Source: Armatimonadota bacterium (GTDB lineage Bacteria; Sysuimicrobiota; Sysuimicrobiia; Sysuimicrobiales; Kaftiobacteriaceae). Taken from it: a stretch of DNA of 64,000 bases. Under the pieces are notes generated by a model. The model had not been told where the DNA came from and made no database searches. It worked only from the letters and a program-made list of their open reading frames with translations. The stretch is taken from contig JAVKHY010000001.1 of the NCBI GenBank assembly GCA_031459765.1, positions 347,701 through 411,700 of the forward strand. The letters are read 5' to 3'. The first letter of the stretch is position 1, and the number at the start of each line of letters is the position of its first letter. This document shows, piece after piece, positions 4,188-18,300 of this stretch. A program made the position numbers and the translations under genes.

Positions 4188-5234
4188 CTACGGCGCGACC
4201 TGGATGGTGCCGTCGCCTTCACCGGTAATATGCCCGATCTGCGCGGCAAGGACGTTCCGGCGGGCCAGGGCCGCGGTCAGGGCCTGGAGCCGCGCCGGCG
4301 GGACAGCCATGAGCAACCCCCCCGACGTCTGCGCGTCACAGAGGATCAACTGGTCGCCCTCGTCGAGCCCGGCGAAGTCGACGCGGGATCGCAAATATTC
4401 GTAGTTGCGGGCCGTCCCTCCGGCGATGGCGCCCTGTCGGACGAGGGTGCGGGCTTCCGCCAGGACCGGGATGGCGGTGTACGACAGTTGGGCACGCACG
4501 CGGCTGGCGGACGTCATCTCGTACAGGTGGCCGAGCAGGCCGAATCCGGTGACGTCTGTGGCGGCGTTCACCCCCACCTCGACCATCGCCTCCGCGGCGT
4601 CCCGGTTGAGCGTCTCCATCACCCGGATGACCTCGTCGATCGCCTGGGGTGACGTCTTCTCCTGCTTGATCCCCGTGGTGATGATGCCGATGCCCAGCGG
4701 CTTGGTGAGGACCAGGCGGTCGCCCGGTTGCGCGCCGACGTTGCGCACGATCCGGTCGGGGCGCACCACCCCCGTGACGGCCAGCCCGTACTTCGGTTCC
4801 GGGTCGTCGATGCTGTGGCCGCCCGCGATGAGGACCCCCGCCTCCCGGGCCTTGTCCGCGCCCCCCTGCAGGATCTCCTCCAGGACCGCCAGCGGCAGCT
4901 TTCCGCGCGGAAAGCCGACGATGTTCAGGGCGAGGATCGGCCGGCCGCCCATGGCATAGACGTCGGACAGCGCGTTCGCCGCGGAGATCGCCCCGTAGTG
5001 GTACGGGTCGTCTACGACGGGCGTGAAGACGTCTACAGTCTGGACGAGGGCGAGGTCGTCGGCGAGGCGGTAGACTGCCGCGTCGTCGACGGTGCTCGTC
5101 CCCACCAGGAGGTTCGGGTCGCTGGGAACCGGCAACCGGCGCAGGACCTGCGCCAGGTCCTCAGGACCGAGTTTGGATGCTCACCCCGCGCAGGCCACCA
5201 GCGCGGTGAGCCGGACGCGCTCCCGTGCCGTCAC
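4188..5234 (-). CDS. selD: Selenide, water dikinase, itself a selenoprotein (in-frame UGA = Sec18)
   Basis: Makes selenophosphate from selenide and ATP, the donor for Sec-tRNA and selenouridine. The body is textbook SelD: GTSTVDDAAVYRL, ALVQTVDVFTP, YAMGGRP, a Gly-rich ATP loop (IAGGHSIDDPEPKYG), and TDVTGFGLLGHLYEM. A conventional reading would start at a TTG at 5135 and lose the N terminus. Reading on past the TGA at 5183-5181 gives TALVACAG-U-ASKLGPEDL, which is the SelD active-site segment with the essential Lys three residues after the Sec. A GTG start at 5234 with AGGGGGTG upstream gives 348 residues, the normal family length, with Sec at 18 (Cys17 in E. coli). A TACAAT -10 lies at 5276-5271. 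Selenoprotein SelDs are known in other bacteria. Confidence 0.93.
5136..5168 (-). promoter_or_regulatory. Putative bacterial SECIS hairpins downstream of the selD UGA
   Basis: Two stem-loops follow the UGA. The first (5168-5156) is GGUCC-UGA-GGACC. The second (5156-5136) is a 9-bp stem CUGGCGCAG/CUGCGCCGG closing a GUC loop; its tip, GCAGGUC, matches the tip of the E. coli fdhF SECIS, where the loop G and U are read by SelB. The two hairpins share one base at 5156, so they may be alternatives. The second loop is about 34 nt from the UGA, farther than in fdhF but within the spread seen for bacterial SECIS elements. Confidence 0.5.
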
Positions 5235-5326
5235 GCCCTCACCCCCTTCCGGAGCCGACGTCACCCGTCGATTGTAGCATGGAGGCGGAGACCCGACGAC
5301 GAAGTCGCGCAGGGGAGGCTCCGATC

Positions 5327-6007
5327 ATGACGTTGCACCAGCTCCGCGTCTTCGCCACTGTGGCGCGACTGGGCAGTTTCTCGCGCGCGGCCGAGGAGCT
5401 GGGGATCACCCAGCCCTCGGTCAGCATCCAGGTCGCCGACCTGGAGCGGGATCTGGGCGTGGAACTGTTCCGGCAGGAGGGGAAGCGGATCGCCCTGACT
5501 CCCGCCGGGCAGGCTCTGGCGGAGTACGCTCCGCGGATTCTGGCCCTGGCCGACGAGGCCGTGGCCGCCGTCCGTCAGGCCGGCCGCGAACCCGTCGCTC
5601 CCTTCGAGGTCATCGAGCACACCTCGGAAGCGGGGATCATCGCCCGGGGACGGACCCTGCCCGAGGTGTTCGCCAACGCCGCCGCGGGCATGCTCTCCTT
5701 CATCATCTCTCCAGAATCCGTCCGCCCCGTTGAGTCGCGCCGGATCGTCGTCACCGCCGACGACCGCGAGGGGCTCCTCGTGGCGTGGCTGAACGAACTG
5801 CTCATCCTGCTCAACGGGGACGGCTTCATCCCCCGGGAATTCCGCATCGAGGAGCTGGAAGCTACGCGCCTTCAGGCGGAGGTCCGGGGCGAGCCGGTGG
5901 ATCCCGGGCGGCACCGCTTCCGACTCGATGTCAAGGCGGCCACCTACCATCAGCTCGAGATCGGCCGGGACGGCGGATGGTACGCGCGGGTCATCTTCGA
6001 TGTGTGA
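5327..6007 (+). CDS. LysR-type winged-helix domain fused to an archease domain
   Basis: 226-residue two-domain protein. Residues 1-62 are a LysR-type wHTH (MTLHQLRVFATVARLGSFSR, AAEELGITQPSVS, LTPAG), followed by the usual linker helix to about residue 90. The normal LysR effector-binding domain is absent. Instead residues 93-226 match archease, the activator of the RNA ligase RtcB: FEVIEHTSEAGI, LLVAWLNELL, HRFRLDVKAATYHQL and the C-terminal VIFDV. The metal-binding Asp of the HTxD motif is Glu101 here; the terminal Asp225 is kept. ATG at 5327 is preceded by AGGGGAGG. It diverges from selD and precedes serS. Likely a DNA-binding protein with an archease-type sensor or partner domain; no rtcB is in the window. 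Confidence 0.88.
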   Translation: MTLHQLRVFATVARLGSFSRAAEELGITQPSVSIQVADLERDLGVELFRQEGKRIALTPAGQALAEYAPRILALADEAVAAVRQAGREPVAPFEVIEHTSEAGIIARGRTLPEVFANAAAGMLSFIISPESVRPVESRRIVVTADDREGLLVAWLNELLILLNGDGFIPREFRIEELEATRLQAEVRGEPVDPGRHRFRLDVKAATYHQLEIGRDGGWYARVIFDV

Positions 6008-6081: not shown

Positions 6082-7347
6082 ATGCTCGATCTGAAGCTGA
6101 TTCGGGACGATCCGGAACTGGTGCGCGAGGGGCTGCGCAAGAAGCACGCCGATGTGGGCCTCGTCGATCGCGTCCTGGAGCTCGACCGCCGGCGGCGGGA
6201 GTGGATCCGACAGGTGGAAGCGCTGCGCGCCGAGCAAAACCAGGCCTCCGCGGCCATCCCCCGCCTGACCGGCGAGGAACGCGCCCGCCGCCTCGCGGAG
6301 CTGCGGGAGGTGGCCGACCGTCTGAAGGCGCTGGAACCCGAGCTGAAGACCCTGGAAGAGCGGCTGCACCGGACGCTGCTGCTCTTCCCCAATCTGCCCC
6401 ATCCGTCCGTCCCGCCGGGGAGAGATGCCTCGGAGAACGTGCCGCTGCGCACCTGGGGACGGAAGCCGGAGTTCACCTTCCCTCCGCTGGACCACCTCGA
6501 TCTGGGGACGCGCCTCGGCATCATCGATATGGAGCGCGGCGCCAAGGTGGCCGGGTCGCGCTTCTACTACCTGAAGGGTGCGGGGGTGCTGTTGGAGCAG
6601 GCGTTGATGCGCTTCGGGTTGGACCTGCTGGTCGCGGAGGGGTTCACGCCGGTCGTCACCCCTTTCCTGGTGCGCCCCGAAATCATCACCGGCGCCTGGG
6701 GGGGCGCGGAACTGGATACCCAGCAGGTCTACCGGATCGAGGGCGAGGATCTGGCGCTGATCGGGACCTCGGAACAGAGCCTGGCCGGCATGTATCAGGG
6801 GGAGACGCTTGAGGAGGAGACCCTGCCCCGGCGGTTCGCCGGGATCTCCTGGAATTTCCGCCGGGAAGCCGGCAGCTACGGACGCGACGTGCGCGGCCTC
6901 TACCGGGTGCATCAGTTCGACAAGCTGGAGATGTTCTCGTACGTGGTGCCCGAGCGCTCCTGGGACGAGCACGAATACCTCGTCTCGCTGGAGGAGCGCT
7001 TCCTGCAGCGGCTGGGGCTCCACCACCGGGTTGTGGCGATCTGCGGCGGCGACACGAGCATCCCGTCGGCGAAGACCTACGACGTGGAGACGTGGATGCC
7101 GGGCCGCGGCGAGTTCGGGGAGACGCAGTCCTGCAGCAACTGCACGGACTTTCAGGCCCGGCGGCTCGGGATCCGCGTGCGGCGGGCCCGCGGCACAGAG
7201 TATGTGCACACCCTGAACGGGACGCTGGTGGCGACCAGCCGGGCGCTCATCGCCGTGCTGGAGAACTACCAGCAGCCGGACGGCAGCGTCCGCATCCCCG
7301 AGGTTCTGGTCCCGTACATGAACGGGCAGGAGGAGATCCGACCGTGA
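6082..7347 (+). CDS. serS: Seryl-tRNA synthetase
   Basis: Charges tRNA-Ser, and also tRNA-Sec, which is relevant because this organism uses selenocysteine. Residues 1-110 form the antiparallel coiled-coil arm that grips the long variable arm of the tRNA. The catalytic core has motif 2 (FRREAGSYG, then LYRVHQFDKLE) and motif 3 (GTLVATSRALIAVLENYQ), with the class-II serine pocket TSEQ. The length, 421 residues, is normal. The ATG at 6082 was chosen because the LDLKLIRDDP start is conserved; its ribosome site is weak. The 74-nt gap from the archease fusion shows no T-box. The TGA overlaps the GTG of the next gene. Confidence 0.97.
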   Translation: MLDLKLIRDDPELVREGLRKKHADVGLVDRVLELDRRRREWIRQVEALRAEQNQASAAIPRLTGEERARRLAELREVADRLKALEPELKTLEERLHRTLLLFPNLPHPSVPPGRDASENVPLRTWGRKPEFTFPPLDHLDLGTRLGIIDMERGAKVAGSRFYYLKGAGVLLEQALMRFGLDLLVAEGFTPVVTPFLVRPEIITGAWGGAELDTQQVYRIEGEDLALIGTSEQSLAGMYQGETLEEETLPRRFAGISWNFRREAGSYGRDVRGLYRVHQFDKLEMFSYVVPERSWDEHEYLVSLEERFLQRLGLHHRVVAICGGDTSIPSAKTYDVETWMPGRGEFGETQSCSNCTDFQARRLGIRVRRARGTEYVHTLNGTLVATSRALIAVLENYQQPDGSVRIPEVLVPYMNGQEEIRP

Positions 7348-15308: not shown

Positions 15309-18300
15309 TTACCCCAGGGCCCGGGCCGCCCGCGGCGATGCCAGAAAGCGCGGGCGCCACTGTTCGGGCAGCGTCTGCGCCATCCGCTCGATGAAACTCC
15401 GCAGCGCGTCGCGGTCTTCCGGACGGTCCAGCAGCTCGCGGCGCACTTCCAGGGCCCGCCACTCCCGGACCACATCCTCGCTCTGCCGGCTCCAGGCCAG
15501 CGCCTGATCCAGCAGCGCCGGCACCTGCGCGCTCCCCTCCCGGGCGGCGAGGCGCGCGTCGAGGATGGCCAGCGAGGCCAGCGCCGGCGGTGAGGCGAAA
15601 CGCAGCAGATCCGGCCGGCGCGGCTCGACATACCGCCGGAGGTCGTCCAGCCTTCCCGCGTCGAGGAAGGCCTCGCCAGCGGTGAGCACCGCCTCCACGT
15701 CGGAGGGGATGAACACCCCGCCGGGCAGGGCGGCCAGTTCGTCCAGCGCGCGCGCCAGCGCGGCCCGGTCCTTTTCCGTCAGGGCCAGCTCGACCGCGGC
15801 CAGCAGGGAGATCTGGCGCCAGGCCGGCGAATGCGACTCGGATGTGGCGGCGTTGCGCCACATCGCCCTGGCCTGTTCCTGGTCCCCGACCTGGTCGTAG
15901 GCTAGGCCGCTGAAGTAGTAGAGCCAGGGATACTGGATCCTGGCCAGCCCGTGGATGCCGATGCGGGCTGCCTCCAGGTTCCGCACGGCCTCCACCCACT
16001 GGCCGAACGCCGTCTGGATGCGACCGATGAAAAAGTGCGTGTACGCGGCGCGCCGACGGTCTCCGATCTCCTCCGCCAGAGCCAGAGCCTCAAAGCCGTG
16101 CGCCAGCGCGGCCCGGTACTGTCCCCGGAAGCCGTGGATCACGCACAGGTAACTGAGCGAGGTGGCCTGACGGGACTTGTCCCCGGCGGCGCGGGCCGAG
16201 GACAACCCGTCGGCGGCCGCCGCGACGGCCTCATCGCCGAATCCCGCGCCGACCAGCGCCATGCACAGCAGGTTGAGGCCGCGGGCCAGCGCCGCGGGAT
16301 CGCCGGATTGGCGCAGCAACTGCAGTCCCTCGGTCAGCGAGGGGTGGTCCGGCGGCAGCCGGCCGCGATCCCAGGCGACGTTGGCCAGGTCAATCAGCGT
16401 CTGCCCCAGGGCCAGCCGCGCCCCGGCCTCGCGGGCCACCTCCGCGGCTTCGCGGAACCGCCGCTCCGCCTCGTCCAGGTCCGTCAGGCGGTGATGGATC
16501 AGCCCGATCTTGTTCTGGAGGACGGCGACCAGCGTTCGATCGCCCACCGACCCCGCCGCCTGCAACCCCCTCTCGAAGTCGGCCAAAGCGCGGGCGTACT
16601 CGCCGATGAGCTGATACACATCGCCCCGATCGCGGTAGACGGCCGCCTGCAGAGCGGGGGCTCCCGGCCCGGCCGCCTCCAGGGCCTGGGTGAAGAGACG
16701 CAGCGCGTCGGCGTTCGCGTAGTGGCGGCGGGCCTTCAGACCGGCGCGGTGGAGGTAGTCGGCGGCGCGTTCGTCCCCGGCCAGGCGCAGGTGCTCGGCC
16801 AGGATCTCCACCACCTCTTCCAGGCGCGCCCCCAGGCGGGGTTCCATCCAGCGCGCCGCCGCCGCGTGCGCCCGCTGGCGCTGCCCCCGCGGCAGGAGAC
16901 TGTAGGCCACGTCGCGGGCCAGGATGTGGCGGAAGGCGTATTCCTGTTCCGCGGCGATCGAGGAGACGGGTCGAGCAACGATGAGTTCCCGTGTCACGAG
17001 CGAGTCGATCGCGGCGACGGTCTGCTCCGCGGTCAACCCGGCGATCTCGCTCACGGCCGACGGCCAGAACGTGCGGCCAACCACCGCGGCGGCCTGGAGC
17101 ACCCGCCGCTCGAGCGGCGGCAGCCGGTCGATGCGCGCCGTCAGCACCGCCTGCACCGTTTCCGGAACCACCGCACCCGGCGCGCCGCCTTCCATCATCA
17201 TGCGCACCAGCTCTTCCACGAAGAGGGCGTTGCCCCCGGCGCGCTGCGCGATCGACCGGACCGCCTCCGCGGTCAGCCCCGCTCGGGCCAGCGAGGACAC
17301 CAGCTGCTCCGCCTCCTGCAGGGAGAGGGGCGCAAGGTCGATGGTTGTGGCGTTGCGCCGTCCTCCTCCCCAGGTCGGACGGCGCTCGAGCAACTCCGGA
17401 CGCGCCAGGCAGATGATGAACAGGGGGATCCCCATCGCCTGCTCCGCCAGCATGGCGGTGAGGTCGAGGACCGCGTCGTCCGCCCAGTGGACGTCCTCCA
17501 GGGCCAGGATCACCGGGTGGTGCGCGGCCAGAGCCGTGATCAATCCCCGCCACGCCTCGAACAGCCGGTGGCGGACGAGTTCGGGATCGCCCCCGGCCTC
17601 GCCGCCGAAGGTGAGCAGGAGTCCCTCCGGCAGGTCGGCACGGCCGGGCAGCACCTCCGCCAGCCACGACGCGACCTTGGCGCGCACGACGTCCGGCGCA
17701 TCGGTGTCCATCAGCCCCGCCTGAGAGCGCAGGATGTCGAGCAGTGCGTGGTAGCCGATCTGTCCTCCGAAGGCTACGCTGCGGCCGCGCAGCACCAGCG
17801 GACGCGGCTCCCGGTCGCGGACCTCGGCCAGGAACTCGCGCAGCAGGCGGCTCTTGCCTACGCCCGGCTCGCCGATGACGGTGACCAGCTGAGCCCGGGC
17901 GTCGTCGCGGCTGCGCTGGTAGAGACTGCGCAGGATGCCCAGTTCGCCGTGGCGGCCGACCAGCGGCGCCGTGATCCGCCGGGCCTCCGCACGCTCGGGC
18001 AGCGCCGCCGTCGCGGCCCAGATCCCCAGCGGCGTCGCTTTCCCCTTGACGGACAGCGGCGGGAGAGGGCGGTACTCGATGCTGTCCTTCGTCAGGCGAT
18101 AGGTGTGCTCGCCGACGATAACCATGCCGGCGGCGGCGGTCTGCTGCAGTCGCGCTGCGGTGGTGACGGCGTCGGAGACGAGGAAGTCGCGCTGGAAGGT
18201 GGAGCCCGACTCGGCCACGACCTCGCCGGTGTCGATGCCCACACGGGTGGCCAGCTGCACGCCGTGGCTGACGGCGAGGTGCGTGTTCAACACGGGCATC

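Follow-up and report, generated by a model that had tools for sequence, protein, structure and literature searches.

A LysR-type DNA-binding domain and an archease are joined in one continuous open frame of 226 residues (positions 5327..6007, plus strand) in the 64,000-nucleotide stretch of DNA analysed here, referred to below as the window. The fusion is a real two-domain protein. To judge from the relatives, the sensing half of a selenium-type regulator was apparently swapped for archease, probably twice, and the resulting chain looks capable of both DNA binding and activation of RNA ligation. Anatomy, origin and selection pattern of the fusion are established by the comparisons described here. 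Neither half is unusual in itself; what is out of the ordinary is their combination, and that it apparently arose more than once. Archease is known as an activator of the RNA ligase RtcB, and the fusion would be a natural construct in which activation of an RNA ligase and binding of DNA are predicted for a single chain.

Domain anatomy of the fusion

The original prediction, made from the nucleotide sequence alone, had proposed the continuous frame and had placed archease where a LysR-type regulator has its ligand-binding half; both proposals hold. A winged helix-turn-helix occupies residues 1-62 (5327..5512, plus strand), with a Pfam match to HTH_1 at residues 3-62 (84.7 bits, cut-off 26.6, E 4.4e-24). 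A complete archease domain follows at residues 93-226 (5603..6004, plus strand), where all 136 of the 136 positions of the Archease model are matched (136.3 bits, cut-off 25, E 1.1e-39); lack of a significant match to these residues had been named as one outcome that would speak against the fusion. Beyond HTH_1 and Archease no Pfam model exceeds its cut-off on the fusion protein, and LysR_substrate, the effector domain, has no match in the window protein or in the four other fusions described below. The two domains are connected by the LysR linker (dimerisation) helix (residues 59-86, 5501..5584, plus strand), which is present in all five fusions, and by a joint delimited by alignment (residues 87-92, 5585..5602, plus strand). 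The protein thus has the N-terminal winged helix-turn-helix and the predicted linker helix of LysR-type regulators, but not their LysR_substrate domain.

Structure prediction, which had been suggested as a check, recovered both domains. The AlphaFold2 model of the window fusion (52 aligned rows, mean pLDDT 95.8, pTM 0.69) has helices at residues 3-15, 18-25 and 29-43, the last being the recognition helix, wing strands at 48-51 and 54-57, an unbroken helix at 59-86 and the archease fold after it. Confidence was high for both domains and the linker helix in this model as well as in that of the fusion from genome G008; the pTM of 0.69 leaves the relative orientation of the two domains open. With Foldseek, the model matched archease in the human RTCB complex and the DNA-binding domains of CbnR and BenM solved with DNA. 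The solved structures closest in sequence are the archeases 4n2p from Pyrococcus horikoshii (E 3e-18) and 1jw3 (E 3.7e-18), with LysR regulators next. The joint varies in length and sequence among the fusions. It comprises six residues in the window and is longer in the others; in G008 it is long and has a pLDDT of 44-54 over its middle, in a model whose alignment contains badly placed distant LysR rows (12-23% identical to the first row) and which leans on the remaining rows. A joint that is short in one protein and long and of low confidence in another favours two independent functions over a rigid allosteric switch.

In ModE-type regulators, too, the C-terminal partner of a LysR-like winged helix-turn-helix is not the LysR effector domain. 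It is a molybdate-binding domain, hence a small-molecule sensor, whereas the partner in the fusion is the activator of an RNA enzyme. The original prediction knew of no described protein of this design, and this agrees with the open-licence full-text literature that was matched: the archease passages of PMC4275035, PMC12699882, PMC2474590 and PMC4378268 contain no description of such a protein, and in two of the matches to LysR the name stands for lysyl-tRNA synthetase.

Relatives and origin

A survey of 43 genomes from the phylum, counting that of the window (G000), found the fusion in five genomes of two genera. The four more genomes that carry it, which had been proposed as a place to look, are G001, G006, G008 and G009, and the frame is intact in each. 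Since the same frame occurs in five genomes of two genera, the fusion is neither an assembly error nor due to chance.

Eleven other genomes (G003, G004, G005, G010, G011, G012, G016, G019, G022, G025 and G028) encode the two parts separately, with archease immediately downstream of a LysR gene. Eight of these loci were inspected, and G028 was assigned from coordinates alone. In the eight, the archease match begins 6 to 114 bases after the LysR stop, and the LysR proteins have 297-309 residues, except for that of G003, which is cut by the contig end. A seryl-tRNA synthetase gene (serS) starts within 75 bases after archease in four of the eight (G003, G004, G005 and G010). Divergently oriented selD lies beside LysR in seven of the eleven genomes (G004, G005, G010, G011, G012, G016 and G019); none was present in 20 kb around the G022 pair, and the G003 locus stops at the contig end. 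G007 has an unfused LysR, again cut by the contig end, and no archease was found in this genome.

The unfused regulators carry what the fusion lacks. LysR_substrate, about 200 residues long, was detected with Pfam in all three unfused LysRs tested (G004, G005 and G012). NF040786, the model of the selenium-metabolism LysR, was the best NCBIfam model for all five unfused LysRs tested, of which four belong to the eleven pairs and the fifth to G014, where no archease was found. The scores were 278.6 (G004), 262.2 (G014), 247 (G005), 239.7 (G012) and 230.5 bits (G019), two of them above the cut-off of 250. The same model matches the window fusion over residues 1-88 only, with 82.1 bits and thus under the cut-off. 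As described in passages of PMC5322559, this LysR subfamily was proposed from comparative genomics, and its archaeal member HrsM controls selenium-related genes, with selenophosphate suggested as effector. DNA-binding domain and linker helix of the fusion are closest to this type (LysR_Se/HrsM), and the locus lies next to selD; where these regulators have an effector-binding domain, the fusion has archease.

Because the effector domain is kept in the unfused neighbours and gone from the fusion, the fusion arose by in-frame loss of the LysR effector domain. An ancestral lysR-archease pair divergent from selD lost the effector domain of about 200 residues together with the intergenic gap, and this loss joined the LysR DNA-binding domain and dimerisation helix to the N terminus of archease. 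Separate genes for the two parts at this locus in relatives had been regarded as an argument against the fusion. Such genes do occur, in the eleven genomes mentioned, but they mark the ancestral state, in which LysR keeps its effector domain.

Two of the eleven, G025 and G028, at first resemble further fusions, with matches to the query from residues 13 and 10, respectively, to 226. These matches read across a TAG, which is where the LysR gene stops (the LysR end was seen for G025), and both were rejected as fusions. Other arrangements occur as well. Archease of family f7 lies beside rtcB in 7 of 12 genomes (G015, G021, G024, G033, G035, G037 and G039). Family f5 has loci where archease and selD are neighbours and a LysR gene is absent, for example L135 (G017) and L136 (G023), and these loci look as if the regulator had been wholly lost.

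Beyond the phylum survey, a collection of 84,980 species gave at least 99 relatives; among 80 of these, three match the query from residue 1 to 226 (L031, L032 and L033), and the LysR rows L049, L068 and L072 among the matches listed reach residues 117-141 of the query. A search of viral contigs gave 82 pattern matches with no relative among them. In one other phylum a profile of the fusion matched 101 of 132 genomes, and none of the matches listed spans both HTH_1 and archease; the furthest-reaching one, in G175, starts at model position 61 and was discarded for a stop codon inside.

The number of fusion events was addressed with a tree of ten concatenated proteins from nine of the ten genomes of the family and two outgroups; G002, without a match at the locus, was omitted, and all rows listed passed the identity filter of 35%. 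The fused pair G000 and G001 groups with the unfused G005 (support 93/95) and the fused G006, G008 and G009 group with the unfused G003 (100/100). Two changes of fusion state are the fewest possible on this tree, and the starred branches force two. Constraining all fused genomes to one clade costs 215.85 log-likelihood units (p-AU 4.8e-59), and a single origin is thereby rejected on the ten-protein tree. The genes of nine of the ten proteins surround the fusion, so the tree leaves room for a transfer of the whole locus; only rpoB comes from elsewhere, and it is absent for G004 and G009. For G001, G007 and G012 less than half of the columns are filled. A tree of archease only needs two changes as well; in a tree of the HTH part only, the fused rows group weakly (70/61), and G000 and G001 sit on long terminal branches. 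Two independent fusions, one per genus, are probably the best reading of these data. Transfer of the fusion between the two genera is unlikely, and transfer, or regain of the effector domain after its loss, is less likely than two fusions. Apparently, a regulator lost its sensor domain twice in one family with its DNA-reading helix still under selection, and the ancestral unfused state is still present in neighbouring genomes.

Genes and intergenic region next to the fusion

Upstream of the fusion and divergent from it lies selD (4188..5234, minus strand), with a GTG start at 5234 and AIRS and AIRS_C domains in Pfam. Its frame passes an in-frame TGA at 5181-5183 in the motif CAG-TGA-ASKLG, which we take to be a predicted selenocysteine codon. 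In a plain listing of open reading frames selD starts at a TTG at 5135 and its N terminus is lost. Downstream of the fusion, serS follows after a gap of 75 bases (6082..7347, plus strand; assigned with Pfam). A gene for SelA is found elsewhere in the same genome (G000:C4).

The intergenic region between selD and the fusion (5235..5326) contains ATTGTAGCAT at 5271-5280, which read on the minus strand is an extended -10 of selD (ATGCTACAAT); it has one match in the 64 kb window where 0.02 are expected. ATTGTANCAT is found in 11 of 17 selD/LysR intergenic stretches compared. These include four of the five fused genomes (G000, G006, G008 and G009) and the unfused G004, G005, G014, G018, G027, G030 and G039; it is missing in the fused G001 and in the unfused G007, G010, G011, G012 and G016. 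As a LysR box, ATTGTANCAT was set aside, since it is better read as the -10 of selD. No LysR box or other operator was found on inspection of the selD/fusion intergenic region.

Tandem GAATCAC heptamers stand by the promoter in G006, G008 and G009. They were rejected as operators because they are genome-wide repeats and absent from G000: the heptamer has 137, 54 and 140 overlapping matches in G006, G008 and G009, respectively, with up to 2 mismatches. Such tandem heptamers occur genome-wide, in dozens of places per genome, in G004, G006, G008 and G009, often as inverted pairs about 40-100 bp apart (for example in L127, around 15844-15962); G007 has four matches and G000, G001, G003 and G005 have none.

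In G001, selD is about 0.7 kb away from the fusion with an open reading frame between them, and for this reason a control of selD by the fusion cannot be general; autoregulation is still possible there. The intervening frame (L133, 1246-1830, plus strand) has 194 residues and no Pfam match.

Selection and possible function

Two tendencies are seen in the DNA-binding half. Its DNA-reading helices remain, as far as codon comparisons tell, under purifying selection: in all five fusions, the recognition helix (residues 29-44) agrees with the consensus of six unfused relatives at 15 of 16 positions, and pN/pS over helices 1-3 is 0.00 for G008/G009, 0.09 for G006/G008 and 0.18 for G000/G001. The underlying amino-acid-changing versus silent differences are 0 versus 4 (Fisher p 0.003), 5.5 versus 21.5 (p 2e-11) and 9.2 versus 18.8 (p 3e-7), respectively. 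Wing and linker helix are more relaxed, with pN/pS of 0.35 (G008/G009; p 0.08, not significant), 0.36 (G006/G008) and 0.43 (G000/G001), and 10-17 of the 28 linker-helix positions deviate from the unfused consensus in the fusions, versus 3-9 in the unfused proteins. For the DNA-binding part as a whole, dN/dS of fused pairs (G008/G009 0.177, G006/G008 0.122, G006/G009 0.128, G000/G001 0.187) is slightly higher than that of nine unfused pairs (0.021-0.151).

The second tendency is a higher rate. On a fixed tree, the HTH part accumulated 0.42-0.60 changes per site in G001 and G000 since the split from G005, versus 0.089 in G005 itself, and 0.22-0.37 in G006, G008 and G009 versus 0.093 in G003, which lacks the first 32 residues and was compared over 52. 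The corresponding values for archease are 0.30 and 0.30 versus 0.26, and 0.16-0.27 versus 0.19. In fused lineages, the rate of the DNA-binding half is about 2 to 7 times that of the nearest unfused relatives, with no comparable speed-up of archease. The fast changes are mainly in wing and linker helix, so that dimerisation or DNA affinity may be altered. This pattern would be expected if packing against the effector domain is gone and DNA reading is still wanted; it would fit a slow decay of the DNA-binding half, too.

The archease half appears complete. For P. horikoshii archease, His9, Asp12, Lys117, Asp141 and the C-terminal Ile142 are given as essential for RtcB activation in passages of PMC3973293; in human archease, the metal-coordinating Asp51 and the phosphate-binding Lys156 are needed for guanylylation, as stated in passages of PMC10944509. 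The P. horikoshii residues correspond to H98, E101, K203, D225 and the C-terminal V226 of the window fusion. H98, K203 and D225 are invariant across the five fusions. In an alignment of 30 archease rows that contains the five fusions, the histidine is kept in 28, the lysine and the equivalent of Asp141 in all 30, and the C terminus is V, I or L. The fusion differs from archease at the first metal-binding aspartate, the most sensitive of the metal ligands, where the window protein has glutamate, which speaks against the bifunctional reading given below; the other four fusions have aspartate, and glutamate is also found at this position in the stand-alone archeases of G017, G016, G019 and G025. 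Compared with known archeases (PF01951; 4N2P; the human protein with RTCB, 8ODO/8ODP), the fusion shares the full-length domain, the fold and nearly all residues essential for RtcB activation. Its score with the NCBIfam archease model NF001617 (104 bits) is below the equivalog cut-off of 126.

The fusion is the only archease match in the window's genome, where a search with the whole fusion gave no second place, and each of the five fused genomes has one match only. RtcB is present in all five (in pieces in G009). Across the 43 genomes of the phylum, several of them incomplete, RtcB and archease occur together in 31; 4 have neither, RtcB is alone in 4 and archease in another 4. Archease is a 16-kDa protein encoded mostly beside rtcB, according to passages of PMC3973293. 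For the fusion this neighbourhood, which the original prediction had suggested to look for, was not found: the only rtcB found in the window's genome is on another contig (G000:C6:10401-11708).

Since the fusion is the sole archease found and RtcB is present, we infer that it would be the RtcB activator of the cell. The reading we prefer, and to which we give an even chance, is that of a bifunctional archease, an RtcB activator that still binds DNA, has no selenium sensor and probably regulates its own gene. The protein would dimerise through the linker helix and bind its former operator, within or close to the promoter of its own gene; continued binding as a dimer is suggested because helices 1-3 are under purifying selection. 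As the effector domain is gone, selenium would no longer be sensed and the protein may act as a ligand-independent repressor or autorepressor, which would set the level of archease and, where it is still adjacent, of selD. In the least certain step, RtcB binding to the archease domain would compete with DNA binding, and such a competition would make RtcB or the demand for RNA repair the new input. RtcB as new effector of the fusion is speculative.

It is possible, if doubtful, that only archease matters and that the LysR part is a passenger, useful for the frame, the translation start, solubility or dimerisation, that regulates nothing. The faster evolution of the HTH part in fused lineages, not matched by archease, the concentration of changes in wing and linker helix, and the fusion of G001, no longer beside selD, would all suit a vestigial head. 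However, a passenger would have no need to conserve a surface that reads DNA, and both the 15 of 16 recognition-helix positions kept in all five fusions and the purifying selection on helices 1-3 in all three comparisons argue against this reading.

The original prediction had also considered a link from RNA repair or tRNA splicing status to transcription, or archease as a sensor domain. In such a transcription factor, bound RtcB, RNA ends, GTP or metal would alter DNA binding and couple RNA repair to transcription. Archease sits where the sensory domain was, the dimerisation helix is kept and the fusion seems to have occurred twice; moreover, archease is a metal-binding protein that reaches into the active site of RtcB, as described in passages of PMC3973293 and PMC10944509. 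We consider a sensor unlikely nevertheless, with the variable joint, which in the G008 model is long and has a low pLDDT, arguing against a rigid allosteric link and with no operator found between selD and the fusion. A no less improbable extension makes RtcB the ligand of the transcription factor: the archease domain would hand the protein between RtcB and operator, and the demand for RNA ligation would set the expression of archease and of the neighbouring genes for selenium metabolism and tRNA charging, an arrangement evolved twice by sensor swap. If this were true, an RNA-repair-responsive regulator would have evolved twice from a selenium-sensing LysR. The fusion makes control of transcription by RtcB occupancy a testable question.

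That an internal start yields free archease beside the fusion protein from the same frame is very improbable. An in-frame ATG or GTG does lie in or near the joint of all five fusions, in the window a GTG at residue 79 closely preceded by GAGG, but its position varies by species, high-GC DNA is rich in GTG, and the window GTG is poorly spaced from the GAGG. A chimeric assembly or a lost stop between two genes, brought to mind by the separate adjacent genes of the relatives, can practically be dismissed given that a whole effector domain is missing, that both genera, five genomes in all, have clean frames and conserved flanks and that the fusion is under purifying selection.

The RtcB proteins of some relatives have a peculiarity of their own. 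RtcB frames of 936-961 residues are found in G007, G013, G026 and G032 and are broken right before the metal-binding cysteine, with the motifs YDIN / C...VVSN / CGVR (L200, G013:C8:59600-62500; L201, G007:C41:9300-12300). The RtcB of G004 has the same gap in a shorter frame, and that of G036 comprises only the first 50 positions. By their sequence, the interrupted frames have the look of a candidate intein.
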